The translations under genes were made by a program, and so were the position numbers. Shown one piece after another: positions 14,696 through 46,615 of a DNA stretch of 64,000 nt; position 1 is the first letter of the stretch, and each line of letters begins with the position of its first letter. The notes beneath the pieces were generated by a model. It searched no databases, was not told the DNA's origin, and saw nothing but the letters and a program-made list of their open reading frames with translations. This DNA comes from Thermoanaerobacter kivui (GTDB lineage Bacteria; Bacillota; Thermoanaerobacteria; Thermoanaerobacterales; Thermoanaerobacteraceae), in assembly GCF_000763575.1 (NCBI RefSeq), contig NZ_CP009170.1, positions 1,863,501 to 1,927,500 of the forward strand, in the 5' to 3' direction.

Positions 14696-15022
14696 CTATC
14701 TTTCTTGACAGCTCCTTTTTAATATCAAGCTTACCTCTCTTTGTAGTTGCTCTTTGACTTTTTCCCATATGCCTTCCCTTTTGTAAAGTTCACGCAATTC
14801 GTTTAAGTTTGGGAAGGAAATTGCATTTCCAAGACAAAGATTGGCACATGTATTACAACCTATTATGCAATTATAAGGTTGTGCAACAATAGGTCCTTCT
14901 TTTGTCCACTCATAAACATTTCTGCCACAATTCATGCACATCCCGCATTTAACACATTTATCATGATCAATTGTGGGAAACCAATTTACTTTTTCTCTTG
15001 GATATCCAGTTAACCAAGCCAT
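14696..15022 (-). CDS. ferredoxin-like 4Fe-4S protein
   Basis: A 108-residue protein with two Cys clusters: CVKCGMCMNCG (about 23-33) and CIIGCNTCANLC (about 52-63). The first lacks the standard trailing CP, and the overall form suggests an atypical 2[4Fe-4S] carrier, with a helical C-terminal tail. It is the last gene of a minus-strand run containing a TauE/SafE exporter and an AcsC-like Fe-S protein. Its partner is unknown; the context suggests electron supply to the neighbouring redox proteins. Confidence 0.75.
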   Translation of the reverse strand: MAWLTGYPREKVNWFPTIDHDKCVKCGMCMNCGRNVYEWTKEGPIVAQPYNCIIGCNTCANLCLGNAISFPNLNELRELYKREGIWEKVKEQLQREVSLILKRSCQER

Positions 15023-15076
15023 GAAAATTCATCCTTGCTTAGTTTAATTACATTAAAGTTAATCCTTTTGCACAAC

Positions 15077-15910
15077 TCAAATCGGCAAATGCAACCACTG
15101 AAACACTCCTATCATCTTTAATCCCATGTAGAGGAATACTATAGCAAATAGGAGTTTAAGCTGTTTTGCAGGAACTTTGTGTGAAACTAATGAGCCAATT
15201 GCTGCAAAAGGGATACTTGTGGCAGCCAAAGCCCCGAACTGCACCCAATTAACATAACCTGTAGAATACGGAGGTAATCCTGCAATTCCTAAGCCATTTA
15301 CCATATATGATATTGCTCCACCTAAAGCTGAAAATGCCATCATAACCATAGATGTTCCAATAGCTTCATGCATTTTGAACCTTAAAGCGAGAACCATAAC
15401 AGGTACCATTAATACTCCGCCACCAATTCCAATGATTCCTGATACAATGCCTAACAATACACCACATATTATATATGTCCATACATTATCTACAATCTCT
15501 TTTTCCTGCTTCATTGGTTTTGCGGTTGCCATTCTGATAGCTCCTAAAACCACAGCAATGCCAAATACCTTTGTAAGAACTGCCCCTGGTGTCTTAGAAG
15601 CAATATAAGCACCTAAAAAGGAACCTGCAAAAGCTGATATTCCAAGGAGTATTCCTTGTTTCCATCTTACAGCACCTTTACGATTATGTGTAATCGCACC
15701 GCTGATTGATGTAGGAAGCACAACCATCAGGTTAGTGCCGAAAGCCACCCTTATAGCAATGGTAGGATCAACACCTAATTTTTGTAGAATCCAGTACTGA
15801 ACCGGAACCATAATAAAGCATCCACCTACACCCAGCATACCTGAAGCAAAACCAACAGCTGCTCCAGTTATCAGCAATATTATGACCTCTGTTAATATGG
15901 TCATATTCAA
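15077..15910 (-). CDS. TauE/SafE family anion exporter
   Basis: A 277-residue membrane protein with eight likely helices arranged as two repeats. Each repeat begins with a conserved glycine-rich block: GAAVGFASGMLGVGGCFIMVP near the N terminus and GIVSGIIGIGGGVLMVPV in the middle. The family exports or imports small anions such as sulfite, sulfoacetate or other organosulfur compounds. It lies between an AcsC-like Fe-S protein and a ferredoxin under a likely ArsR operator, so a sulfur- or metal-linked substrate is plausible. The actual substrate cannot be read from sequence. Confidence 0.85.
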   Translation of the reverse strand: MNMTILTEVIILLITGAAVGFASGMLGVGGCFIMVPVQYWILQKLGVDPTIAIRVAFGTNLMVVLPTSISGAITHNRKGAVRWKQGILLGISAFAGSFLGAYIASKTPGAVLTKVFGIAVVLGAIRMATAKPMKQEKEIVDNVWTYIICGVLLGIVSGIIGIGGGVLMVPVMVLALRFKMHEAIGTSMVMMAFSALGGAISYMVNGLGIAGLPPYSTGYVNWVQFGALAATSIPFAAIGSLVSHKVPAKQLKLLFAIVFLYMGLKMIGVFQWLHLPI

Positions 15911-15934
15911 TCCCTCCTAAAATCTTTTATATTC

Positions 15935-16480
15935 TTAAAACATTTCAGCTATCTTTTGATAATTTTCTGAATCTGGTATCAATTCTGGACAATCATCAAT
16001 GGCTACTTCATCTAATGATAATTTTGTAGCAAAGGACATGCATGTAGGTAATCCGCACTTTTTACAATTGCTCTTTGGTAAATACTTAAAGATGTCAATT
16101 GCTTTTGGCTGTTTCCATTCTTTGTAACTTGGTGTTATTTGACCTTTGCGACTAATAATATCGTTGATATATTTGATACATTCATCACAGATTTCTTTGG
16201 CAACATCTTTATCTAAGAAAGGTCTAAGCGAAATGGTATCTCCTTGGATTGCAACCGTCCATGGCTTGCCTTTGCACTCTTCAGGAAATCCTTTGAAGTT
16301 GAATTTTATCCAATTTAAATTAGAAAGATATTTTGCCTTTTCGGCTAGAGCATTGATATAGGGTAGTATTTCTGTAAGGTCACGGTCCACCTTTATTGTT
16401 GCTACAAGAATTTCACCACCCGCATGACACGCTGCATAATCAATTTTTACCTCATAATGCTTAATAATTGTGTTTTCCAT
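15935..16480 (-). CDS. AcsC-like [4Fe-4S] domain protein
   Basis: A 181-residue soluble protein. The C-terminal third carries FKYLPKSNCKKCGLPTCM and, after 18 residues, DDCPEL: the four-Cys cluster domain found at the N terminus of the corrinoid protein AcsC (compare MLPKKNCKECGFPTCLAFA encoded at 46.6 kb) and in related activator proteins. The N-terminal part (about 1-120) has no recognised domain. Known role of this domain: redox relay to corrinoid or similar cofactors. With a RACo-like ASKHA gene nearby this suggests a second corrinoid- or metallocofactor-linked system. Confidence 0.75.
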   Translation of the reverse strand: MENTIIKHYEVKIDYAACHAGGEILVATIKVDRDLTEILPYINALAEKAKYLSNLNWIKFNFKGFPEECKGKPWTVAIQGDTISLRPFLDKDVAKEICDECIKYINDIISRKGQITPSYKEWKQPKAIDIFKYLPKSNCKKCGLPTCMSFATKLSLDEVAIDDCPELIPDSENYQKIAEMF

Positions 16481-16542
16481 TTTTATTTTAATCCCTCCAT
16501 TTTTGAATTGTGCTTTCTAATTTCAGATCCAAAATATTTGCT

Positions 16543-16908
16543 TTATGATTTTAAAAGATTTTTCTTGATTTTCTCACATAAATCAGGTGAAGAACGTATT
16601 CGTGAACAAGATATGCCATTTTTCAGATTGCTTCTAATTACTGAAAAAATCTCATTTTCCAAAACTTTCATACAGTTATTGAACATTTCAATGTCAAGCG
16701 AATAATAGGTCATTTTACCTTCTCTTGAGTCTCTAATTAATCCCGCTTGTTTCAATATTTTTAGATGATGTGATACTGCTGGCTGGGACATTTTTAAAGC
16801 ATCCATGACTTCACAAACTGCCATTTCGTGTTTAGAAAGGAGAAATAAAATACTTATTCTGTTATTATCCGCTAAAGCTTTTAATATATCGATGCTCTTT
16901 TGTTCGAT
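16543..16908 (-). CDS. ArsR-family repressor with unclear start
   Basis: The winged-helix core reads VCEVMDALKMSQPAVSHHLKIL followed by GLIRDSREGKMTYYSL, standard ArsR. Met at 16824 is too far in. The family N-terminal helix (DILKALADNNRISILFLLS) is encoded in the same frame upstream, but no ATG, GTG or TTG exists before the in-frame TGA. The only strong signal is GGGAGTGATG in the +1 frame, where ATG is followed by T-AAT-ATC-GAA. Either an ATC start (16908) is used or one T was inserted just after the true ATG. The gene heads the run AcsC-like protein, exporter, ferredoxin. Confidence 0.75.
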   Translation of the reverse strand: MEQKSIDILKALADNNRISILFLLSKHEMAVCEVMDALKMSQPAVSHHLKILKQAGLIRDSREGKMTYYSLDIEMFNNCMKVLENEIFSVIRSNLKNGISCSRIRSSPDLCEKIKKNLLKS

Positions 16909-16922
16909 ATTACATCACTCCC

Positions 16923-16954
16923 ATCTAAATATAAAAATATTTTTATATTTAGAT
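16923..16954. promoter_or_regulatory. 32-bp perfect palindrome, probable ArsR operator
   Basis: A 32-bp perfect inverted repeat with half-site ATCTAAATATAAAAAT and no spacer, 15 bp ahead of the ArsR coding frame, touching the -10 box of the promoter. Its position and A/T-rich symmetry suit autoregulation by the ArsR dimer. Confidence 0.7.
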
Positions 16955-16981
16955 TTTATACCTCAAAAATGTATTTGTCAA
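16953..16981 (-). promoter_or_regulatory. sigma-A promoter of the arsR operon
   Basis: Consensus TTGACA (16976-16981) and TAAAAT (16953-16958) on the minus strand with exactly 17 bp between them. The start of transcription would fall inside the 32-bp palindrome, giving a simple repression geometry. Confidence 0.8.
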
Positions 16982-17034
16982 CACTTTCTATTTGATAAAT
17001 TACATAAAAACCTAACAGAAAGTGTTGACAAATA
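16972..17034. repeat. 18-bp perfect inverted repeat with 27-bp spacer
   Basis: Arms TATTTGTCAACACTTTCT (16972-16989) and its exact complement (17017-17034). The left arm contains the -35 box of the arsR promoter; the right arm contains another TTGACA on the plus strand. It may be a second operator, or the ends of a small inserted element, because an IS remnant follows at 17075. Confidence 0.6.
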
Positions 17035-17074
17035 TAAAACAAGTGTGTTTATTAAGTATTTTAATATTTTACCA

Positions 17075-17198
17075 TGATTTTTATAAAAATTTTAACTTAT
17101 ATCATAAGCCAACTTGGTAGTAATTATAGTATGAGCGAAATTGCTAAGTCAACAAACGTGTCAGTTGCAACTGTTATGAGACTATTTGACAAAGAACC
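17075..17198 (+). pseudogene. transposase helix-turn-helix fragment (ISL3-like)
   Basis: On the plus strand this stretch reads QLGSNYSMSEIAKSTNVSV followed by ATVMRLFDKE, the DNA-binding helix-turn-helix seen in ISL3-type transposases. It has no start, is about 35 codons long, and ends abruptly at the end of the ASKHA gene. It is a remnant. Confidence 0.55.
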
Positions 17199-18673
17199 TA
17201 TCTTTTTAAATTAATCCTTTTCTCAACGCTTGGGTAAAGGCTAAGGTCGGTATGAGGAAGGAATAAAGCTTTTTCAAGGTAGTGTATATAGCCCTCTTCC
17301 TCACCTAACTCCATATATGTGAGGTTCTCTTTAATATCCTTTAAAACCTTATGAGCCTCTCTTTCCATGAGCATCTTTTTCGCAGCCTTTAAGGATGTAT
17401 TCCCAAGAATGACAAATTTATCTCTTGGAATGTCAGGATACATCCCTATGTTTATCGCCGCTTCTATATCAATGTATTCACCAAGCGCGCCTGCTACATA
17501 AAATTTGTCAAGGTCACTTAAGTTTATATTCATAGTTTCCAGCATATACGAAACGGCTGCATTAGCTCCTGCCTTTGTTCTCATAAAATTATCTATATCG
17601 TTTTGAGTAATGTAAACATCCTCTGTAATGAATATCCTATCACCATTTATAAGCTTGCCTCTTCTGTCTACAAGACCATGAATAAATAGCTCAGATAAAA
17701 GCTTTATCATACCTGTACCACATATGCCAATCGGTTTGACATCGCCTATAACATGGAACTTAAATTTGCCATCTTCATATCTGACTTCATCAATAGCCCC
17801 TTCCATTGCCCTCATGCCTTTTTCAAGGCTACCTCCTTCAAAAGCAGGACCTGCCGCTCCAGCTGCGCAAAGTAGCCAGTCCTTGTTTCCAAGCATCATT
17901 TCTGCATTTGTGCCTATATCGATAAAAAAAGAAACCTCTTCTTTCTTCCACATATCAGAAATCAATATTCCGCCTACAACATCCCCACCTACATAGCTGC
18001 CAATGCTTGGCAAGATATACATCCTTGCAAATGAATTTACATTAATACCTATATCTGCAGCTTTGATAAAGCCCGGAGCATTTATTATAGGGGTTTTAGG
18101 CACCCTGCAAATTGTCTCTATGGGAAGATTCAAAAGCAGGTGGACCATAACAGTATTAGCCCCTATGCCTATACCTAACAGATTCTCCATGTCTATTTTC
18201 TTAGAGAATCTATCAAGGATAGACAAAATATCTCCGGCCACCAACTTCTGAAGTTCGTCCCTTCCTGCTTTGTTGTTGAAAGCATGAAACATTCGATGCA
18301 GAACATCTTCCCCTATCTTGACTTGCGAATTGGTACAATTTGCTGAATCTAAAACCTCACCAGTGTTAAGATCAATCAACTCTGCTGATATTGTGGTGCT
18401 TCCTATGTCAATGGCAACTGCGTAACATTCCTCTACTCTACCTGCTTGAATTGACAACAAGTGATACTTCTCATCATACATCAAAGAGCAGGTAACCTCG
18501 CCTTTTCCTTTTTCAAATTCCTTGTATATTTTTTCGTACAATTCAAAAGGAATTTCAACCCTTCCATGGAGCAAATTTTCCAACTTCTCTCTTACTCTAT
18601 CTACATAGGCTATATTATCACCTTGTCCCGGTAACTTCATTTTTAGATACTGCTTAAAAAAAACCTTTGCCAT
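17198..18673 (-). CDS. RACo-like ASKHA protein lacking the ferredoxin domain (DUF4445)
   Basis: About 491 residues. From about residue 85 it matches the ASKHA/DUF4445 body of reductive corrinoid activators: AVAIDIGSTTISAELIDL, VGGDVVGGIL, FFIDIGTNAEMMLGN, GAAGPAFEGGS, ICGTGMIKLLSE, VAGALGEYI and a C-terminal FLPHTDLSLYPSV. The N-terminal 2Fe-2S domain that AcsV (39.5-41.4 kb) has is missing and replaced by an all-helical segment. Known family role: ATP-dependent reduction of inactive Co(II) corrinoids. Electrons might come from the separately encoded Fe-S proteins of the same island. Start 18673 follows a TTGAGGTG site. Confidence 0.8.
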   Translation of the reverse strand: MAKVFFKQYLKMKLPGQGDNIAYVDRVREKLENLLHGRVEIPFELYEKIYKEFEKGKGEVTCSLMYDEKYHLLSIQAGRVEECYAVAIDIGSTTISAELIDLNTGEVLDSANCTNSQVKIGEDVLHRMFHAFNNKAGRDELQKLVAGDILSILDRFSKKIDMENLLGIGIGANTVMVHLLLNLPIETICRVPKTPIINAPGFIKAADIGINVNSFARMYILPSIGSYVGGDVVGGILISDMWKKEEVSFFIDIGTNAEMMLGNKDWLLCAAGAAGPAFEGGSLEKGMRAMEGAIDEVRYEDGKFKFHVIGDVKPIGICGTGMIKLLSELFIHGLVDRRGKLINGDRIFITEDVYITQNDIDNFMRTKAGANAAVSYMLETMNINLSDLDKFYVAGALGEYIDIEAAINIGMYPDIPRDKFVILGNTSLKAAKKMLMEREAHKVLKDIKENLTYMELGEEEGYIHYLEKALFLPHTDLSLYPSVEKRINLKR

Positions 18674-18856
18674 TTTACTCACCTCAAGAAAGTTTTTGTA
18701 AATAAAAAATCTTTTTTATTGTTTTGATCTGCAAATCCCATCTTTATTACCCCTTTTTTGTTTTTTCTTTTAAGTATACTCTTGCCTAACCTAAATGTAA
18801 AATATTAAAATAAAATAAAATTGATATGTAAATACATATACATCGAGGTGAAAAAA

Positions 18857-19780
18857 GTGACTCTAAGACACCTAAAGATATTCCTGACTGTATGTGAAAA
18901 AGGCAGTATGACAGCGGCAGCCAACCACCTTCATATGACACAGCCCCCAGTTAGCCAAGCAATTGCCGAACTTGAGGAATATTATGGAGTAAAACTGTTT
19001 GAACGCTTTGGGCGAAAAATCTATCTTACCAACGAAGGTGAAAAACTCTATTCGTATGCTTCTCACATATTGGCTTTGGCAGATGAAGCACAAAAGCAGC
19101 TTTTGGACCTTTCTCAAAACGGCATCTTGCGAGTTGGAGCAAGTATGACAATTGGAACTGCAATTTTGCCCTTTATAATAAAAGATTTTTATCAATCTTA
19201 CCCTAAGACTTATATTCAACCAGTGGTGGACAACACCACAACAATAATTAAAATGATTGAAACTGCCAAGCTTGATATGGCCATCGTAGAAGGGCTGGTC
19301 TCAAGCGCAGATATAATCAAAATTCCTGTATATGATGATGAACTTGTTTTGATATGTCCGTCAGAGCATCCATATGCAAAGAAAAAGATAATTGAACCCC
19401 ACGAGCTTGAAAATCAGCACTTTGTGATTCGCGAGGAAGGAAGCGGAACACGCGAAATTTTTGAAGCCGCCATGCACGAATATAACATCAAATGGAATAT
19501 TGCAGGAGTGTTTAACAGCACTGAAGCAATCATCAACGCCGTTCACTGCGGCTTGGGCTTTTCATTCATATCTCAACTTTTAGCCGATGAAGCTATAAAA
19601 AGGCAAAAAGTGGAACTGGTAAAAGTTCCTAAACTCAAAATCAAGCGCAAATTCAATATCGTATACCATAAGAACAAGTTCATCTCTAATGCTATGGAAA
19701 AATTCTTAGGCTATTGCCAAAGATATTTTGGTTCTATAGCATATGTTGGGGTGGGTAAGAACCACCTTTTCAATGTATGA
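18857..19780 (+). CDS. LysR-family transcriptional regulator
   Basis: About 307 residues. The N-terminal winged helix reads TLRHLKIFLTVCEKGSMTAAA and TQPPVSQAIAELEEYYG, followed by a substrate-binding domain of two lobes (about 90-290) resembling the CysL/YeiE group. Start 18857 (GTG) is chosen because GAGGTG lies six bases before it; the frame itself opens further upstream at a TTG. It is divergent from the ASKHA gene, the usual arrangement for a LysR protein and its target. The last dozen residues (YVGVGKNHLF) are encoded by a repeat-derived hairpin, so the tail is probably not ancestral. Confidence 0.87.
   Translation: MTLRHLKIFLTVCEKGSMTAAANHLHMTQPPVSQAIAELEEYYGVKLFERFGRKIYLTNEGEKLYSYASHILALADEAQKQLLDLSQNGILRVGASMTIGTAILPFIIKDFYQSYPKTYIQPVVDNTTTIIKMIETAKLDMAIVEGLVSSADIIKIPVYDDELVLICPSEHPYAKKKIIEPHELENQHFVIREEGSGTREIFEAAMHEYNIKWNIAGVFNSTEAIINAVHCGLGFSFISQLLADEAIKRQKVELVKVPKLKIKRKFNIVYHKNKFISNAMEKFLGYCQRYFGSIAYVGVGKNHLFNV
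19747..19772 (+). terminator. terminator hairpin overlapping the end of the LysR gene
   Basis: Hairpin GGTGGGTAAGAACCACC followed by TTTTC on the plus strand. The same sequence recurs in the opposite orientation near 29994-30018. It overlaps the last codons of the LysR gene and can end its transcript. Confidence 0.6.
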
Positions 19781-19874: not shown

Positions 19875-21590
19875 TTAATATTCTTTCTTTCTTGAGTGAT
19901 AGTGAGTGTGAAGCTCCTCATGAGCTTTTGGACCACAAGGCTTTTCATAATATTCTTCGTATACCTTTTTAACCTCTTCGTTTTCATGGGACTTTCTCTT
20001 AGGAAGATTTCTGTCGTTTTTGTAAATGCCTTCCATCCTCTTTTTCCTAAACTCAGGATCATCTGTATATGGCTGTCCGCCACCACTCATACAACCACCA
20101 GGACATGCCATAACCTCTACAAAGTCATACTTTGTCTCACCGCTTTTTATCTTCTCAATCAATTTCTTAGCATTTCCAATGCCATTAGCTATAGCAATTC
20201 TTACTTTCTTACCCTTAATATCCACTTCTGCCTCTTTTATTCCCTCTAAGCCTCTTACAGCAGTAAACTCTATTTTATCCCCTTCTAACTCTTCACCTGT
20301 CATAATAGAATATGCTGTTCTCAAAGCTGCTTCCATAACACCGCCTGTCACACCAAAGATTGCAGCCGCACCCGTTGACTCTCCAAGTGGTGAGTCAAAG
20401 TTTTCTTCTTCAAGCTTAATAAAGTCTATACCTGATTCTTTTATCATTCTTGCAAGTTCTCTTGTTGTCAAAACAGCATCTACATCATTATTAAACTCGG
20501 GTCTTGTTGCCTCAAATTTCTTACCTATACATGGCATAACTGATACTACAAACATATTCTCCCGTGCAACGCCAATCTTCTTAGCATAATAATTCTTTGC
20601 AATAGCACCAAATATTTGCTGAGGAGACCTTGCTGTGGAAATATTAGGAATAAGTTCGGGATAAAACTTCTCAACAGCAAGTATCCACGATGGACAGCAA
20701 GATGTAAACATTGGAAAATTCTCGCCTTTTTCCAATCTCTCAACTAACTCTGCTGTCTCTTCAACTATGGTCATATCTGCAGCAAATTGCGTATCAAATA
20801 CTTTGTCAAAGCCAAGTCTTTTGAGTGCTGCTACCATCTTTCCTGTTACAATTTCACCTGGTTCTAAACCAAATTCTTCACCCAGTGCAACACGAACAGC
20901 TGGTGCTACTTGAACAACTACAACCTTATTAGGATCAGAAATAGCCTCATAAATCCTTTCTATATCTGTTTTTTCTGCAAGTGCTCCTGTTGGACATACT
21001 CTTACGCACTGACCACAGAAAATGCAGTCTGACTCAAGGAGTGGTTTTTCAAAAGGTGTGCTGATATATGCTTTGAAACCTCTTGAAGCAAAATCAATAG
21101 CACAAATGTGTTGTACCTCCTCACATATGCGAACACATTTGCCGCAAAGTATGCATTTGTTAGGATCATAGTATATTGGTCCGTTATCCTTAATCTCATA
21201 ATTTCTCTTTTCGCCTTTAAATCTTATATTTCTAATATTCAATTCATAAGCATATTTTTGAAGCTTACAGTGAAGGTTTTTATCACATTCAAAACAATCA
21301 GCATTGTGGCTTGAAAGAAGGAGTTCTAATATCACCCTTCTTGCTTTTAGGACTTTAGGGCTGTTGGTCTTTACTACCATGCCTTCTCTTACAGGCGTAT
21401 GGCATGATGCAACAAGGTTACCTCTCGCATCCTCAACAACACACAAACGACAAGCACCAAAAGGTTTTAGATCATTGTCATCACACAATCCCGGTATTTC
21501 TATCCCCAATTTCTCAGCCGCTTTTTTAATGGTTGTTCCCTTTTCAACTTGCACTTGCTTACCATCTATTGTTAACATTACCATGTTCAT
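19875..21590 (-). CDS. hydA: [FeFe] hydrogenase catalytic subunit HydA of an electron-bifurcating complex
   Basis: A 571-residue protein with, in order: an N-terminal 2Fe-2S domain (Cys near 36, 47, 50, 63), a His-Cys 4Fe-4S site (HNADCFECDKNLHC), two 4Fe-4S clusters (CILCGKCVRICEE and CIFCGQCVRVCPTGA), and the H-cluster domain with L1 TSCCPSW, L2 MPCIGKKFE and L3 ACPGGCMSGGGQP. Known role: with HydB and HydC it couples H2 oxidation to simultaneous reduction of ferredoxin and NAD(P)+, or the reverse. It is the last gene of hydC-hydB-hydA. AAAGGAG precedes the start by about ten bases. Confidence 0.95.
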   Translation of the reverse strand: MNMVMLTIDGKQVQVEKGTTIKKAAEKLGIEIPGLCDDNDLKPFGACRLCVVEDARGNLVASCHTPVREGMVVKTNSPKVLKARRVILELLLSSHNADCFECDKNLHCKLQKYAYELNIRNIRFKGEKRNYEIKDNGPIYYDPNKCILCGKCVRICEEVQHICAIDFASRGFKAYISTPFEKPLLESDCIFCGQCVRVCPTGALAEKTDIERIYEAISDPNKVVVVQVAPAVRVALGEEFGLEPGEIVTGKMVAALKRLGFDKVFDTQFAADMTIVEETAELVERLEKGENFPMFTSCCPSWILAVEKFYPELIPNISTARSPQQIFGAIAKNYYAKKIGVARENMFVVSVMPCIGKKFEATRPEFNNDVDAVLTTRELARMIKESGIDFIKLEEENFDSPLGESTGAAAIFGVTGGVMEAALRTAYSIMTGEELEGDKIEFTAVRGLEGIKEAEVDIKGKKVRIAIANGIGNAKKLIEKIKSGETKYDFVEVMACPGGCMSGGGQPYTDDPEFRKKRMEGIYKNDRNLPKRKSHENEEVKKVYEEYYEKPCGPKAHEELHTHYHSRKKEY

Positions 21591-21616
21591 TAAAATCTCA
21601 CTCCTTTCCCCTCTTA

Positions 21617-23509
21617 TTAACCTTTATATATTGCGCCTTTTGGACAATTTTCTGCACATGCTCCGCACTTAATACACTTGCTCTGGTCAATTACATGAGG
21701 TTTTTTCTTCTCACCCGAGATTGCACCAACAGGACAAACCTTTACACATTTACCACAACCTATACATTTACCAGGGTCAATTTTATATGCTGCAAGAGCT
21801 TGACAAGCACCTGCTGGGCATTTCTTATCACGAATATGAGCCTCATACTCATCTCTAAAATGCTTTATTGTGCTAAGAACAGGATTTGGAGCTGTTTTGC
21901 CAAGACCACAAAGAGAAGCACTTATTATTACATCTCCAAGTTCTTCAAGAAGTTCAATATCTCCTTCCTTGCCTTTACCTTCAGTAATTCTCTCGAGTAT
22001 TTCTAACATCTTCTTATTGCCTTCACGGCATGGAATACACTTTCCACAGGATTCCTCAACTATGAAGTTTGTGAAGAACTTTGCGAAGTCAACCATACAG
22101 GTATCTTCATCAACTACAACAACACCTCCAGAACCCATTATAGCTCCCGCTTTTGACAATGAATCAAAATCTATAGGCAGGTCTAACTGACTTTCAGGCA
22201 CACATCCACCTGAAGGACCACCTAACTGTACTGCCTTAAATTTCTTGTTATTTGCTATACCGCCACCTATATCAAATATAAGCTCACGAAGTTTCAATCC
22301 CATTGGGACTTCAACAAGACCTGTTCTGTTAACCTTTCCTGATAGAGCAAAGATCTTTGTACCAGTACTTGTTGGAGTACCTATTGATGCAAACCATTCT
22401 CCACCATTTAGGATTATTTCTGGTATGCATGCAAATGTCTCAACATTGTTCAAAACCGTTGGCATCTCCCAAAGTCCACACTCATTTGTTCTTGGTGGAC
22501 GAACCCTTGGCATACCACGTTTTCCTTCTATAGAGTAAGTAAGAGCAGTGGATTCACCACAGACAAATGCACCTGCACCTTCTCTTACATGTAACCTAAA
22601 TGAAAAACCAGTTCCAAGGATGTTATCTCCAAGCAATCCCAATTTTTCGCATTCTTCAATTGCTTTTCTGAGCATCTGAACAGCCAAAGGATATTCTGCA
22701 CGTACATAGATATATCCTTCATCAGATCCTATAGCATAAGCGCCTATCATCATACCTTCAATTACTTTATGTGGATCGCCTTCCATAACACTTCTGTCCA
22801 TGAAAGCACCAGGATCGCCTTCGTCTCCATTACATATAATATACTTCTTAGGGCTTTGGTTCTTATAAGCTCCAAGCCACTTTTCTCCTGTTGGGAATCC
22901 AGCACCACCGCGGCCTCTAAGCCCGGACTTTATAACCTCATCTATTATCTGTTTACGGTCCATTGTTAAAGCCTTAGCTATAGCTGAATAACCACCCTCA
23001 GCAATATAGTCATATACAGATGCTGGGTCAACAGTACCACAATGCTTTAAAACAAGACGTGTCTGTTTCGCATAGAAAGGATTTTCATCCCTCTTTACAT
23101 AGGTTTTACCTGTAGCTGGATCGTGGTATAAAAGCCTTTCTATTATTTCATTTTTCTTAATGCTCTTTTCCACAATCTCTTCCACATCTTCAGGCTTTAC
23201 ACCTACATAAAATACCCCTAAAGGCTCTATTGTCATAAGAGGACCTTGTGCGCAGAAACCTTGACAACCTGTCATTTTAACATGAACTTCACTTGTATTC
23301 TCAAGACAGTCACTTGATAAGTTCACATCAACATTTGCAAACCCTTCTCTTTTGAGAACTTTTACAAGTTCATCTCTAACAGCCAGTGAACCTGAAGCTC
23401 TACAACCAGTTCCACCGCATATACGTATAACTATTTTCTCTTTTTTCTTTGCTTCTTTTATCTTTTCTCTTAAATTTTCTAACTCTTGTATGGATTTTAA
23501 CTTCACCAT
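21617..23509 (-). CDS. hydB: HydB, NuoF-like flavoprotein of bifurcating hydrogenase
   Basis: About 630 residues. An N-terminal thioredoxin-like 2Fe-2S domain (about 30-120) is followed by the NuoF core with NADH site [13 protein letters not shown] and FMN-binding segment [14 protein letters not shown]. Then come the SLBB region, the cluster motif [12 protein letters not shown], and two C-terminal 4Fe-4S clusters ([24 protein letters not shown]). Known role: binds NAD(P)H and FMN and holds the bifurcation centre. The start at 23509 (MVKLKS) is chosen for its GGGAGGTG site; the frame is open 21 codons further upstream without a good site. Confidence 0.94.
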
Positions 23510-23540
23510 TAAACCACACCTCCCACAATCATACTTAATT

Positions 23541-24053
23541 TTATTGTGCAGAAGCTGCTGCTTCCACATCACTGTACTCTTTTAATACCTCGCTAACCTT
23601 CTCAGGAGTCATTTTACCATAAGTTTTTTCATTTACCATGACAGTTGGTGCCAAACCGCATGCACCAAGACATCCAACTCTCTCCAAAGTGAATTTCAAA
23701 TCACTTGTGGTCTCTCCAGCTTTAATACCCAACTGCTTCTCGAACTCCGCAAGAATTTTGTTAGCACCTTTAACATGGCAAGCAGTCCCAAGACAAACTC
23801 TGATAACATATTTCCCCCTTGGTTTTAGATGGAACTGTGCATAGAAAGTAGCAACACCATAAATCTTGCTGGCAGGAATTCCTGTTTTGCTTGCAATGTA
23901 GAAAATTACATCTTCAGGCAAATATCCAAATTCATGTTGAACATGCTGAAGAATAGCGATAAGCGCTCCTCTCTCATTTGCGAGCTTGGATAATATCTCA
24001 TCGACTTTCTCAAACCTTGGATCTTTACTTCCTTTGCAGCAGCAATTACACAT
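23541..24053 (-). CDS. hydC: HydC, NuoE-like subunit of bifurcating hydrogenase
   Basis: About 170 residues with the NuoE fold: N-terminal helices, then the thioredoxin-like 2Fe-2S domain with [13 protein letters not shown] and [13 protein letters not shown] supplying the four Cys ligands. An unusual Cys-rich N terminus (MCNCCCKG) precedes the core. The start at 24053 is preferred because AAAGGAGG lies upstream of it; the in-frame ATG at 24077 has no ribosome site. It is the first gene of the hydCBA operon. Confidence 0.93.
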
Positions 24054-24194
24054 CAGATTTAAACCTCCTTTAAACATTTTTAATTTAATAATATTAGTAA
24101 AACTTATAAATTATTAGCACAGCCCAAAATGATAAAATTCACGTTGCGTTTTAGTACTTTAATCCTGTTATTAAACCTTTTCAATTTCCTTCTT

Positions 24195-39472: not shown

Positions 39473-41410
39473 TTACTTTTGGTTCAATAATGACATAACA
39501 CTCGGGAATAAATTCATATCGGTATGGGGCAAAAAGCATGCACTTATAAATTCATCCATATACGATGGATATACGCTGAGCTCAACATAGGTCATAGCAT
39601 CTGCAATCTCCTTGACCTTATCTCTTGCTTGTTCATATAGCAAACAAAGATAAGCTCCTAATAAAGAACTATTGCCTATATAGGAAAATTTGCTCCTATC
39701 AATATCAGGTAAAAGCCCAATCATTATTGCATTTTCAATATGAAGGTTTTGCCCAATACCCCCAGCAATTATTACTTTATCTACATCATCCATCGAAAAG
39801 CCAACACTCTTTAAAAGGACATTTGAACCAGAATATACGGCTCCCTTAGCTTTTAAGAAGTTGCTGATGTCTATCTCATTAATCGTAATATCCCTACCAT
39901 CAGCAGTTTCTTTGCCCCAAACCACTACATATTCCATCACGTACAAATCTTCATCAAATCTTATCCTGTCTGATTCTAATTCTTTTGAAATCTCTCCCTT
40001 TGAATTAATTATTCCTGAAAGGAACATCTCTGCCAGAAGGTCTATTAAACCTGAGCCACATATGCCTTTAGGTTTAACATTGCCTATTACCCTAATCTTA
40101 GGTTCCAATGTCTTCCTATCAATTGAAATTTCATCAATTGCTCCTGGCATTGCTCTCATTCCACAACTAATCTCTCCACCTTCAAATGCAGGTCCTGCAG
40201 AGCAAGCACAGGTTAGCATAAGGTCTTTATTGCCAAAAACAATCTCTCCATTTGTACCCAAATCCATAAACAATACATTTTTTTCTTCTTTCCAAATACC
40301 TGTAGCCAAAACACCTGATACAATATCCCCACCAACATAACTTGCAACATTTGGAATAACTATTACTTTAGCTTCGGGATTTATGTCAATTCCTATATCC
40401 TTTGCTTTTAATTCAGGGCATTCCCTAAATGCAGGTATATAAGGCTCCACCCTTATATACGCAGGTTCTACACCCAAGAAAAGATGTGTCATTGTGGTAT
40501 TCCCTGCAAATGTTGAGATAATAATATCTTGCTTTTCAATGTTAGCTTTCTTCACCAGTTCGTCTATCAACCTGTTTATAGTCCCATCCACTACTGCAGA
40601 CTTTATTTTTTCCAAACCACCCTCTGTGGAGGCATAGATTATTCGGCTTATTACGTCACCACCATACTGCATTTGAAGGTTGCCTGATGAAGCAGCAGCT
40701 ATGATCTTATTGCTTTCCAAATCAATTAAATTAACTGCTACTGTTGTCGTACCTATATCCACACATATTCCATATGTGCTGGTTTCTTTATTTCGAGCCT
40801 TAATCCTTATTAATTCACAACCGTTTTTACCTTTTAAAAATGTAGCTCTTACTTTAAAATTATTTTCCCTCAATATTTTAGGCATATTCTTTAAAACATT
40901 CAATGAACAAAAAAAATTTTCTATGTTATACTTTACTTTTAGCTCTCTTTTTAACCTTTCAAAATCTGCCACATTATCATCAATAGAAGGCTCAGGAAGT
41001 TCTATATCAATATTGAATACACCACACTCTTTTTTTATGCCCTCTTCCTCTAAAAGCTTGCTTGCTTTAAGAACTCTTTCATTTTTTTCATCTCCAGGCT
41101 TTATACCTTCCACTAAGATATTTTGTACTTGCTTAGATTCCTCTACCTCAACAATCATATCGCCTTCTACAAAGGTAAGACACGCAAGTCTAATGCCTTT
41201 TTGCCTATCCTCACTGGTTAACAGAGAAGTTATTTCCTCTTTATAATCTCCAGAAATGATTTTTACTCTACATTTTCCACATCGTCCTTTCCCACCACAA
41301 GGCGCATCAATAAAAACCCCTGCTTTTCTTGCTGCCTCGAGTAAATTAGTGCCTTTTGTTACACTTATACTTTTATTAGAGGGTTTAAAAATTACTGTAC
41401 ATTTTTCCAT
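39473..41410 (-). CDS. acsV: corrinoid activation protein AcsV (RACo)
   Basis: A 645-residue protein with an N-terminal 2Fe-2S ferredoxin domain (Cys 38, 44, 47, 77 in APCGGKGRCGKC and ACL), a linker and middle domain, then the ASKHA body: CVDIGTTTVAVNLIDL, ASYVGGDIVSGVL, FMDLGTNGEIVFGN, CSAGPAFEGGEISCG, CGSGLIDLLAEM and AGGIGQNL. Known role: ATP-driven one-electron reduction of the inactive Co(II) state of the corrinoid protein AcsCD. It is separated from gcvH by a 380-bp gap with a hairpin, so it may have its own promoter. Confidence 0.92.
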   Translation of the reverse strand: MEKCTVIFKPSNKSISVTKGTNLLEAARKAGVFIDAPCGGKGRCGKCRVKIISGDYKEEITSLLTSEDRQKGIRLACLTFVEGDMIVEVEESKQVQNILVEGIKPGDEKNERVLKASKLLEEEGIKKECGVFNIDIELPEPSIDDNVADFERLKRELKVKYNIENFFCSLNVLKNMPKILRENNFKVRATFLKGKNGCELIRIKARNKETSTYGICVDIGTTTVAVNLIDLESNKIIAAASSGNLQMQYGGDVISRIIYASTEGGLEKIKSAVVDGTINRLIDELVKKANIEKQDIIISTFAGNTTMTHLFLGVEPAYIRVEPYIPAFRECPELKAKDIGIDINPEAKVIVIPNVASYVGGDIVSGVLATGIWKEEKNVLFMDLGTNGEIVFGNKDLMLTCACSAGPAFEGGEISCGMRAMPGAIDEISIDRKTLEPKIRVIGNVKPKGICGSGLIDLLAEMFLSGIINSKGEISKELESDRIRFDEDLYVMEYVVVWGKETADGRDITINEIDISNFLKAKGAVYSGSNVLLKSVGFSMDDVDKVIIAGGIGQNLHIENAIMIGLLPDIDRSKFSYIGNSSLLGAYLCLLYEQARDKVKEIADAMTYVELSVYPSYMDEFISACFLPHTDMNLFPSVMSLLNQK

Positions 41411-45256: not shown

Positions 45257-46615
45257 TTAAGCAACTCTATTAGTATAGTCCTTTAAGAACTTAGGTAACA
45301 TTTCTGCTTCTTCAGGCCCTACTACTACTTTCCAACCTGGTAGTGCATCTTCGATATCAGGCTTCAACACTGCTACTTTACCAGGTATAAGTATCTCTCT
45401 TGTTTTTAGTTTTTCTTCTACACCCATTTCCTTTACAGCGTCGGCAATTGTTTTACCTGAGAACTTACCTGCAGCCCACGCTGTCAAAACCGAAAGACCA
45501 CCTGCATCTGGTATTAAAAGCCATGCTGGAACTTTTGACCTTTCAATTTCACCAGAGACAATAAAGTAAGTAAGTGCAAAGTCAACTGTTACCAAAAGCG
45601 GTGCATTTTCCTCTGCTGGACCTATCTTGTACAATCCTTTTTCAACTCTCATAGGTTTCTGTGGATCTGTAAAGATGTTTTGTCTCAAAGCAAATAGTGG
45701 CAAAGCCAATGAGTAATCAATCTCATCAAGAACAATGATTGAACCATATTTCTCAACAAAAAGCGTAGCATATGCAAGTTGCATGAATTTATCACTTGAC
45801 AAATTGTTTACAAATACAACACTTGGATAACCAAAGACTCTATCCTGAGCAACTAAAGCTGTTCTCCTTATATTCACTATATCATCAAAAAGTTGTTTAG
45901 CTTTGTCTGCTTTTGTGCTTAGTATAAGTTCGTTATATCCACCTGAACGGATTTTTGATACAACATCATACAATGCTTCTAAATTATCAGCTTCTACACC
46001 CAATAAAAGATTGTTCTCTTTTGCTATGTTAACCATTGCTTCATAGTTTTGTGGATTTGCCCCGTACAAGATTGGGCCTAAATCCTTTACTTCTTCTACT
46101 GCAGCTTTTGCAATTTCAGGGTCATCAGTAATTATCATAGGAACAGCAAGTTTACATTCATCTTTAACTTTCTTCAAAAGCTTTAGATACTGATCTTTGT
46201 TTTTGCTTTCACATTTCACTGCAGCTACTTCAACAAACATATTCTCGCCAATACGCACATAGTTTACCTTGTTCATATTAGCAATCTTTTGATTGATTTC
46301 ATCATCAGACATAGTATCCTTTAGCATTACAGCAAAGCGGTTTCTGTTTACAAATGTCTTTTCATGTCTGAAAAGAACAGTTTCACCACCAAGTGTATAA
46401 GTCTTATCGCCACTTCCAAACTTAACCGTTTTCATCAATGGTGCCGTAGCCTCTGCCAATTTCATCTTAGCCTCTTCGCTCATATAAGGACACTTTTCAG
46501 CTTCTACGCCACCTTGAGCTAACTTCATTGCAAAAGCAAGACAAGTTGGAAATCCACATTCCTTACAATTCTTCTTTGGAAGCATTTTATATATATCCAT
46601 ACCTGTTAAAGCCAT
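45257..46615 (-). CDS. acsC: corrinoid/iron-sulfur protein large subunit
   Basis: A 452-residue protein with the N-terminal 4Fe-4S domain MLPKKNCKECGFPTCLAFAM (about 12-31) plus the fourth Cys in AEKCPYM, a TIM-barrel middle domain and a C-terminal corrinoid-binding domain. Known role: carries the methyl-cobamide between AcsE and AcsB, as a dimer with AcsD. It lies 32 bp after acsD. Confidence 0.95.
   Translation of the reverse strand: MALTGMDIYKMLPKKNCKECGFPTCLAFAMKLAQGGVEAEKCPYMSEEAKMKLAEATAPLMKTVKFGSGDKTYTLGGETVLFRHEKTFVNRNRFAVMLKDTMSDDEINQKIANMNKVNYVRIGENMFVEVAAVKCESKNKDQYLKLLKKVKDECKLAVPMIITDDPEIAKAAVEEVKDLGPILYGANPQNYEAMVNIAKENNLLLGVEADNLEALYDVVSKIRSGGYNELILSTKADKAKQLFDDIVNIRRTALVAQDRVFGYPSVVFVNNLSSDKFMQLAYATLFVEKYGSIIVLDEIDYSLALPLFALRQNIFTDPQKPMRVEKGLYKIGPAEENAPLLVTVDFALTYFIVSGEIERSKVPAWLLIPDAGGLSVLTAWAAGKFSGKTIADAVKEMGVEEKLKTREILIPGKVAVLKPDIEDALPGWKVVVGPEEAEMLPKFLKDYTNRVA

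Follow-up and report, generated by a model that had tools for sequence, protein, structure and literature searches.

Does an activator-type ATPase that lacks a ferredoxin domain obtain the missing iron-sulfur function from the genes beside it? The question is raised by five minus-strand genes at 14696-18682 of a 64,000-nucleotide stretch of the single-contig Thermoanaerobacter kivui genome (positions 1,863,501-1,927,500 of 2,397,824 bp; hereafter, the window), which encode a RACo-like ASKHA protein, an ArsR repressor, an iron-sulfur protein (FeS; 15935-16480), a TauE/SafE-family exporter and a ferredoxin-like protein. A first-pass annotation had read them as a split activator, with the Fe-S functions carried on neighbouring chains. 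We find instead that the interval is two independent, separately controlled units standing side by side: the ASKHA gene (unit A), and the ArsR, FeS, TauE and ferredoxin genes (unit B).

Homologues were sought in the genomes of the order and in a draw of 398 genomes of the phylum. Membership of the ferredoxin-less (Fd-less) ASKHA clade was called from matches at E<=1e-85, a threshold at which weaker members elsewhere could be missed; relatives of FeS were gathered from contigs by alignment query, the lone FeS sequence having given no match. Neighbourhoods were counted at 27 Fd-less ASKHA loci (26 outside the window) and 23 FeS-family loci, and a second FeS sample comprised 26 loci outside the draw, many on short contigs. 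The nearest relative carrying both the ASKHA and FeS genes is designated G003.

A RACo-like ATPase without a ferredoxin domain

All three domains of the RACo body were recognized in the window ASKHA protein above gathering scores: the linker PF17650 (residues 4-84, E 8e-9), the middle domain PF17651 (87-246) and the C-terminal domain PF14574 (249-486); the same Pfam search did not find Fer2 (PF00111). The first-pass annotation had described a helical N terminus in place of the 2Fe-2S domain; that domain is indeed absent, but the supposed replacement is the ordinary RACo linker and no new module. Its match of the 491-residue protein to the body of AcsV was borne out: the alignment begins at position 127 of the AcsV model (425.8 bits, E 3e-127), a score that does not reach the NCBIfam AcsV cut-off of 800 bits, and the RamA-type score is 154.8 bits. 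A Fer2 domain encoded upstream in the same frame was ruled out, the open frame being only 505 amino acids long, as was a recent loss of the domain in T. kivui, the Fd-less proteins being one clade. Since the other two ASKHA proteins of the genome (AcsV and an 824-residue type) both carry Fer2, its lack is specific to the window protein.

Matches to the ASKHA protein formed three size groups: Fd-less proteins of ~490-540 amino acids, Fer2-bearing AcsV-type proteins of ~630-660, and proteins of ~825, the one checked of which contains Fer2. When these were placed on a tree, 26/26 Fd-less rows lay on one side of a branch with 100/100 support, although the root is unsure and the long-branched row L111 (locus L135) is uncertainly placed. 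The Fer2 motif was absent from every Fd-less row, and the position of Ser398, the residue that serves as a Co(II) ligand when RACo is bound to CoFeSP (PMC4934906), was alanine in 24/24 Fd-less rows examined and serine in 8/8 Fer2-bearing AcsV-type rows; alanine was also found there in the 825-residue type and in the 603-residue row L070. Since this ligand is missing, the Fd-less proteins cannot work by exactly the mechanism of RACo. Alignment to RACo (3zyy) revealed that the ATP-site motifs (the DIGTTT, DIGTNGE and AGGFG regions) are kept with minor changes. The Fd-less ASKHA protein is thus a member of a distinct, widespread RACo-like subfamily, which shares with RACo/AcsV of Carboxydothermus (3zyy, 4c1n) the linker, middle and ASKHA domains, the ATP-site motifs and occurrence in CoFeSP genomes, but differs from it in having no 2Fe-2S domain, an alanine for Ser398 and its own Cys192, in forming a separate clade, and in coexisting with a full-length AcsV. 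A literature search, the primary RACo papers lying outside its scope, returned no description of Fd-less RACo proteins or of the FeS family in ars loci.

Immediately upstream, a 20-codon open reading frame with a good ribosome site (18680-18742, minus strand) ends with a stop that overlaps the ASKHA start region, and may possibly be coupled to it translationally.

Confinement to CoFeSP genomes and sulfite-related neighbours

Every genome of the draw with an Fd-less clade member also encodes acsC, the CoFeSP large subunit (25/25, versus 118/398 overall; p=9e-15, species in the draw not being independent); at the family level the count was 15/15 (p=2e-9, with the draw taken to hold ~141 families). 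This distribution supports the suggestion, made in the first-pass annotation, of a second activator related to corrinoids. Such confinement is not true of every gene, since YeiH occurs more widely, with only 62 of 174 cases in acsC genomes. Within acsC genomes, YeiH was present in 23/25 of those with the Fd-less clade versus 39/93 of those without (p=7e-6). In the order, the clade was found only in the T. kivui genome and in G003.

Genes with a sulfite theme neighbour the ASKHA gene at 9/26 loci outside the window: NIR_SIR-type proteins at seven, DsrE at seven, YeiH at four (one a fragment) and YeiE-like LysR regulators at three (L119, L129 and L130, in each of which the regulator adjoins the ASKHA gene), the window providing a fourth. 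These loci lie on four branches of the tree, namely L115, L119, L129 and one subclade with the other six. In the window, the divergent LysR gene resembles the YeiE and 'selenium-metabolism LysR' types, although its scores fall below both cut-offs (NF040786, 248.5 bits against 250; NF040889 YeiE, 219 bits against 480). In Salmonella, sulfite resistance depends mainly on YeiH, which is under the control of YeiE, and experiments have shown the two to be a sulfite-resistance pair (PMC12880088). The window resembles that system in its YeiE-type LysR gene divergent from its neighbour, and four related loci have YeiH near the ASKHA gene; it differs in that the divergent gene is the ASKHA gene, the genome is without YeiH and the LysR protein falls short of the YeiE cut-off. 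ACR3 or ArsP was found at 0/27 Fd-less ASKHA loci, and no ferredoxin gene recurred beside the ASKHA gene at these loci.

Other neighbours were noted in a few lineages. The Fd-less ASKHA gene has [FeFe]-hydrogenase-type genes (hydABC-like or hydF) in its vicinity in the window (19875-24077), at L126 (1981-6233) and at L113 (10165-11391); this proximity in three lineages may be chance. At L116, L117 and L124, a cysteine desulfurase-like gene follows the ASKHA gene, and genes resembling, by eye, methylmalonyl-CoA mutase, MeaB and cobalamin adenosyltransferase lie on the opposite strand.

The FeS protein belongs to a family of arsenic loci

The first-pass annotation had called FeS an AcsC-like 4Fe-4S protein. 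A 4Fe-4S domain is present (PF04060, E 3e-13), but only ~44 residues (128-171) are AcsC-like and the remainder is a separate TBP-like domain; C18 is conserved in 26/26 rows, as is each of the four cluster cysteines. In the predicted model (mean pLDDT 91.5), the N-terminal domain superimposed on TBP with a VIA Z of 10.7 (95 residues, root-mean-square deviation 2.6), and the C-terminal domain on CoFeSP 4c1n with a Z of 9.4 (55 residues, deviation 1.3) and on the AcsC N-terminal 4Fe-4S domain 2ycl with a Z of 9.4 (deviation 1.4, 34% identity). Foldseek gave no match to the model at E <= 0.001, its best being the CoFeSP domain; the TBP-like assignment, based on a VIA-align Z of ~10, indicates fold and not function. 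The C-terminal domain of the model resembles the N-terminal 4Fe-4S domain of AcsC (2ycl), whereas FeS has no TIM barrel or corrinoid domain, and in it the TBP-like domain precedes the 4Fe-4S domain.

Among the 23 FeS loci, ACR3 was present at 12, ArsP at 12 and either at 15 (representatives confirmed with TIGR00832 for ACR3 and PF03773 for ArsP), and a cysteine desulfurase of EF2568 type, sometimes fused to FeS, at 16; in the second sample, ACR3 or ArsP occurred at 12/26 loci, Archaeoglobi among them. In the draw, acsC was present in every genome with FeS (32/32, p=4e-19), and an acsC match was found in 22/26 of the 25 second-sample genomes plus G003, two partial. The family is an iron-sulfur component of anaerobe arsenic islands, confined in the draw to genomes of the carbon monoxide dehydrogenase/acetyl-CoA synthase (CODH/ACS) pathway.

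Fusions of the cysteine desulfurase to FeS were seen at L045 (7664-9412), at L144 (686-2434) and in other frames of 575-586 amino acids; because such fusions exist, a joint function of the two proteins is supported. At L013 (1710-4571, in G003), L051 and L057, an ArsR-associated cluster encodes a ferredoxin, two DGC proteins, a DGC-GcvH fusion and a small fragment that by eye looks HdrA-like, and at L051 and L057 it adjoins the cysteine desulfurase and FeS genes; it looks like a sulfur-carrier system. In G003, a site-specific recombinase region stands between a second FeS copy and a cysteine desulfurase-like gene (L014, 8947-14632).

The two units are separate

The reading of the five genes as one activator, in which the ASKHA protein would work jointly with the AcsC-like 4Fe-4S protein and the ferredoxin, as a RACo-like system for a second corrinoid or metallocofactor protein, draws on their adjacency on one strand, on the confinement of both families to acsC genomes and on a PF04060 domain closest to that of CoFeSP. 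Linkage in relatives goes against it: Fd-less ASKHA genes were found at 0/23 FeS-family loci, and FeS at 1/27 Fd-less ASKHA loci, that one being the window itself. Nor do the families co-occur within acsC genomes, FeS being present in 6/25 with the Fd-less clade versus 26/93 without (odds ratio 0.81, p=0.80), and FeS goes instead with ACR3, ArsP and cysteine desulfurase loci. In G003, the FeS-TauE-ferredoxin order is the same as in the window (L013; FeS 73% identical), and the ASKHA gene (76% identical, internally deleted) lies 305 kb from FeS, beside cas1-cas2 and hydF. Between the ASKHA and ArsR genes of the window are an ISL3 transposase remnant, an inverted repeat and, on the ArsR side, a promoter-like site with a palindrome (Table 1). 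Together, the remnant, the separate promoter-like site and palindrome and the lack of linkage in relatives indicate two units and not one; the split activator is accordingly very improbable.

The other components named by the first-pass annotation were recovered, namely the TauE/SafE exporter (PF01925), the ferredoxin-like protein (by its cysteine motif) and ArsR (PF01022), and, as it had stated, no corrinoid methyltransferase is among the genes of the island. The arsR frame begins naturally at an ATC (16908) where relatives have methionine, with no ATG, GTG or TTG at that place, so ArsR may be poorly expressed or started internally at 16824.

Table 1. Coordinates, in the window, of unit A, unit B, the DNA between them and the genes used for comparison
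Feature	Position	Strand	Remarks
Small ferredoxin-like protein	14696..15022	-	Second Cys motif CX3CX2CX3C; orthologue in L013
TauE/SafE-family anion exporter	15077..15910	-	PF01925, 190 bits, E 7e-56
FeS protein: TBP-like domain + CoFeSP-type 4Fe-4S domain (predicted)	15935..16480	-	Cluster C139, C142, C147, C164; conserved C18
ArsR/SmtB repressor	16543..16908	-	121 aa, apparent ATC start; PF01022 E 1e-18
Perfect 32-bp palindrome over -10 element, candidate ArsR operator	16923..16954	.	Single in window, 0 in shuffles
Promoter-like site of arsR operon	16953..16981	-	TTGACA-17-TAAAAT, consensus match only
21-nt inverted repeat	16972..17034	.	95% complementary, 21-nt spacer; possibly insertion-sequence end remnant
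ISL3-family transposase remnant (helix-turn-helix part)	17086..17196	+	Ends beside ASKHA stop codon; 65% identity/37 aa to 395-aa ISL3 transposase
Fd-less RACo-like ASKHA	17198..18682	-	494 aa from GTG 18682, 491 aa from ATG 18673
Ala276 codon of ASKHA	17855..17857	-	Aligned with cobalt-ligating Ser398 of RACo (alignment to 3zyy)
Cys192 codon of ASKHA, clade signature cysteine	18107..18109	-	Arg in AcsV type, Ala in 824-aa type
Intergenic region between divergent LysR and ASKHA genes	18683..18820	.	138 bp
LysR regulator, YeiE/'selenium-metabolism LysR' type	18821..19780	+	Divergent from ASKHA gene
Full-length AcsV, for comparison	39473..41395	-	640 aa, Fer2 motif + Ser398 equivalent
acsC (CoFeSP large subunit), for comparison	45269..46615	-	NF003195 580.8 bits, cut-off 306

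Possible roles of the two units

The explanation that we favour, at a probability of about 0.42, is that unit A provides CODH/ACS organisms with a second RACo-like ATPase, probably linked to sulfite, and abuts an independent, ArsR-controlled export operon. Building on the domain content, clade, residue changes, unit separation and gene contexts, and on the finding that within the draw both families are restricted to genomes with CoFeSP, we infer a partner protein, ligand, electron source and exported compound as follows. The stand-alone ATPase would most likely bind a corrinoid protein that acts in the Wood-Ljungdahl (CODH/ACS) pathway, with CoFeSP as the foremost candidate. Under stress from sulfite-like ligands, it would spend ATP to free the cobalt of that protein or to tune it, by altering the ligand state. 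RACo reactivates CoFeSP by way of its own 2Fe-2S cluster and the cobalt-ligating serine; because the Fd-less protein has neither, electrons would have to come from elsewhere, for example from the 4Fe-4S domain of CoFeSP itself or from a general ferredoxin. Fer2 appears dispensable for binding CoFeSP, since the RACo chains in the solved complex 4c1n are 509-510 residues long and align from residue 74, versus 631 residues in 3zyy. If true, this would be another use of an ASKHA ATPase in the acetyl-CoA pathway, tied to sulfur-oxyanion stress. A more specific version, that the cluster-free ATPase rescues CoFeSP from a soft cobalt ligand such as sulfite, ATP serving to change the ligand state and the CoFeSP 4Fe-4S cluster giving the electron, while arsenic-like thiophiles are kept from harming this pathway by the separate TBP-fold/4Fe-4S protein, we regard as doubtful.

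Several observations weigh against the explanation that we favour. Sulfite genes are absent from 17/26 Fd-less ASKHA loci outside the window, and six of the nine loci that have them come from one subclade; YeiH (PF03601) had no match in the T. kivui genome, whose AsrC-type sulfite reductase is unlinked to the ASKHA gene. The clade lacks the serine that ligates cobalt in RACo, and its co-occurrence with acsC may come in part from shared lifestyle and ancestry. In unit B, ArsR is without one cysteine of the usual As(III) site (AVC for CVC, the first cysteine being replaced by alanine), and no ACR3, ArsB or ArsP adjoins the unit, TauE/SafE being its sole transporter.

Three alternatives were weighed. 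That the ATPase drives a siroheme protein (small, sulfite/nitrite-reductase-like) in sulfite reduction, and has no corrinoid partner, is rather unlikely: NIR_SIR-type proteins occur at 7/27 ASKHA loci, often in the company of DsrE and encoded on the ASKHA strand, and an AsrC-type reductase is encoded in T. kivui, but that reductase lies apart from the ASKHA gene, 6/7 of the linked cases are from a single subclade, and the restriction to CoFeSP genomes would be left unexplained. A role in reactivating corrinoid methyltransferase systems of the methylamine or O-demethylation type, for which a general ferredoxin would supply the electrons, seems improbable. The divergent member L135 seemingly follows an mttB-like gene (by eye), the ATPase has RamA-type homology, and the 824-residue type is likewise without the Ser398 equivalent; yet no methyltransferase was recognized beside the other ASKHA loci, L135 is the long branch of uncertain placement, and the AcsV score far exceeds the RamA-type score. 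Just as improbable is a single sulfite-response island running from LysR to the ferredoxin gene, with TauE replacing the YeiH that the genome lacks; a YeiE-type LysR and a TauE/SafE exporter do share one interval, but TauE stays with FeS and the ferredoxin in G003, not with the ASKHA gene, and the insertion-sequence remnant and ArsR's own promoter-like site and palindrome split the units.

On the explanation that we favour, unit B would export a thiophilic oxyanion or metalloid, the candidates for ligand and cargo being sulfite, a metalloid resembling arsenite or some other thiophilic anion, and TauE would stand in place of an arsenic transporter; TauE is unmentioned in one survey of ars-operon transporters. 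As in an ars operon, unit B has an ArsR-family repressor and a candidate operator. Anaerobe arsenic islands (ArsR, ACR3, ArsP, ArsM) are the home of the FeS family and of the closest relatives of the window ArsR: of 24 ArsR proteins from the vicinity of FeS loci, the nearest to it are the ones with ACR3 as a neighbour. Unit B differs from these islands in its TauE exporter and altered CxC motif. A decayed ACR3 gene, the only ACR3 of the genome, lies ~20 kb before the window (G000:C1:1843394-1844088).

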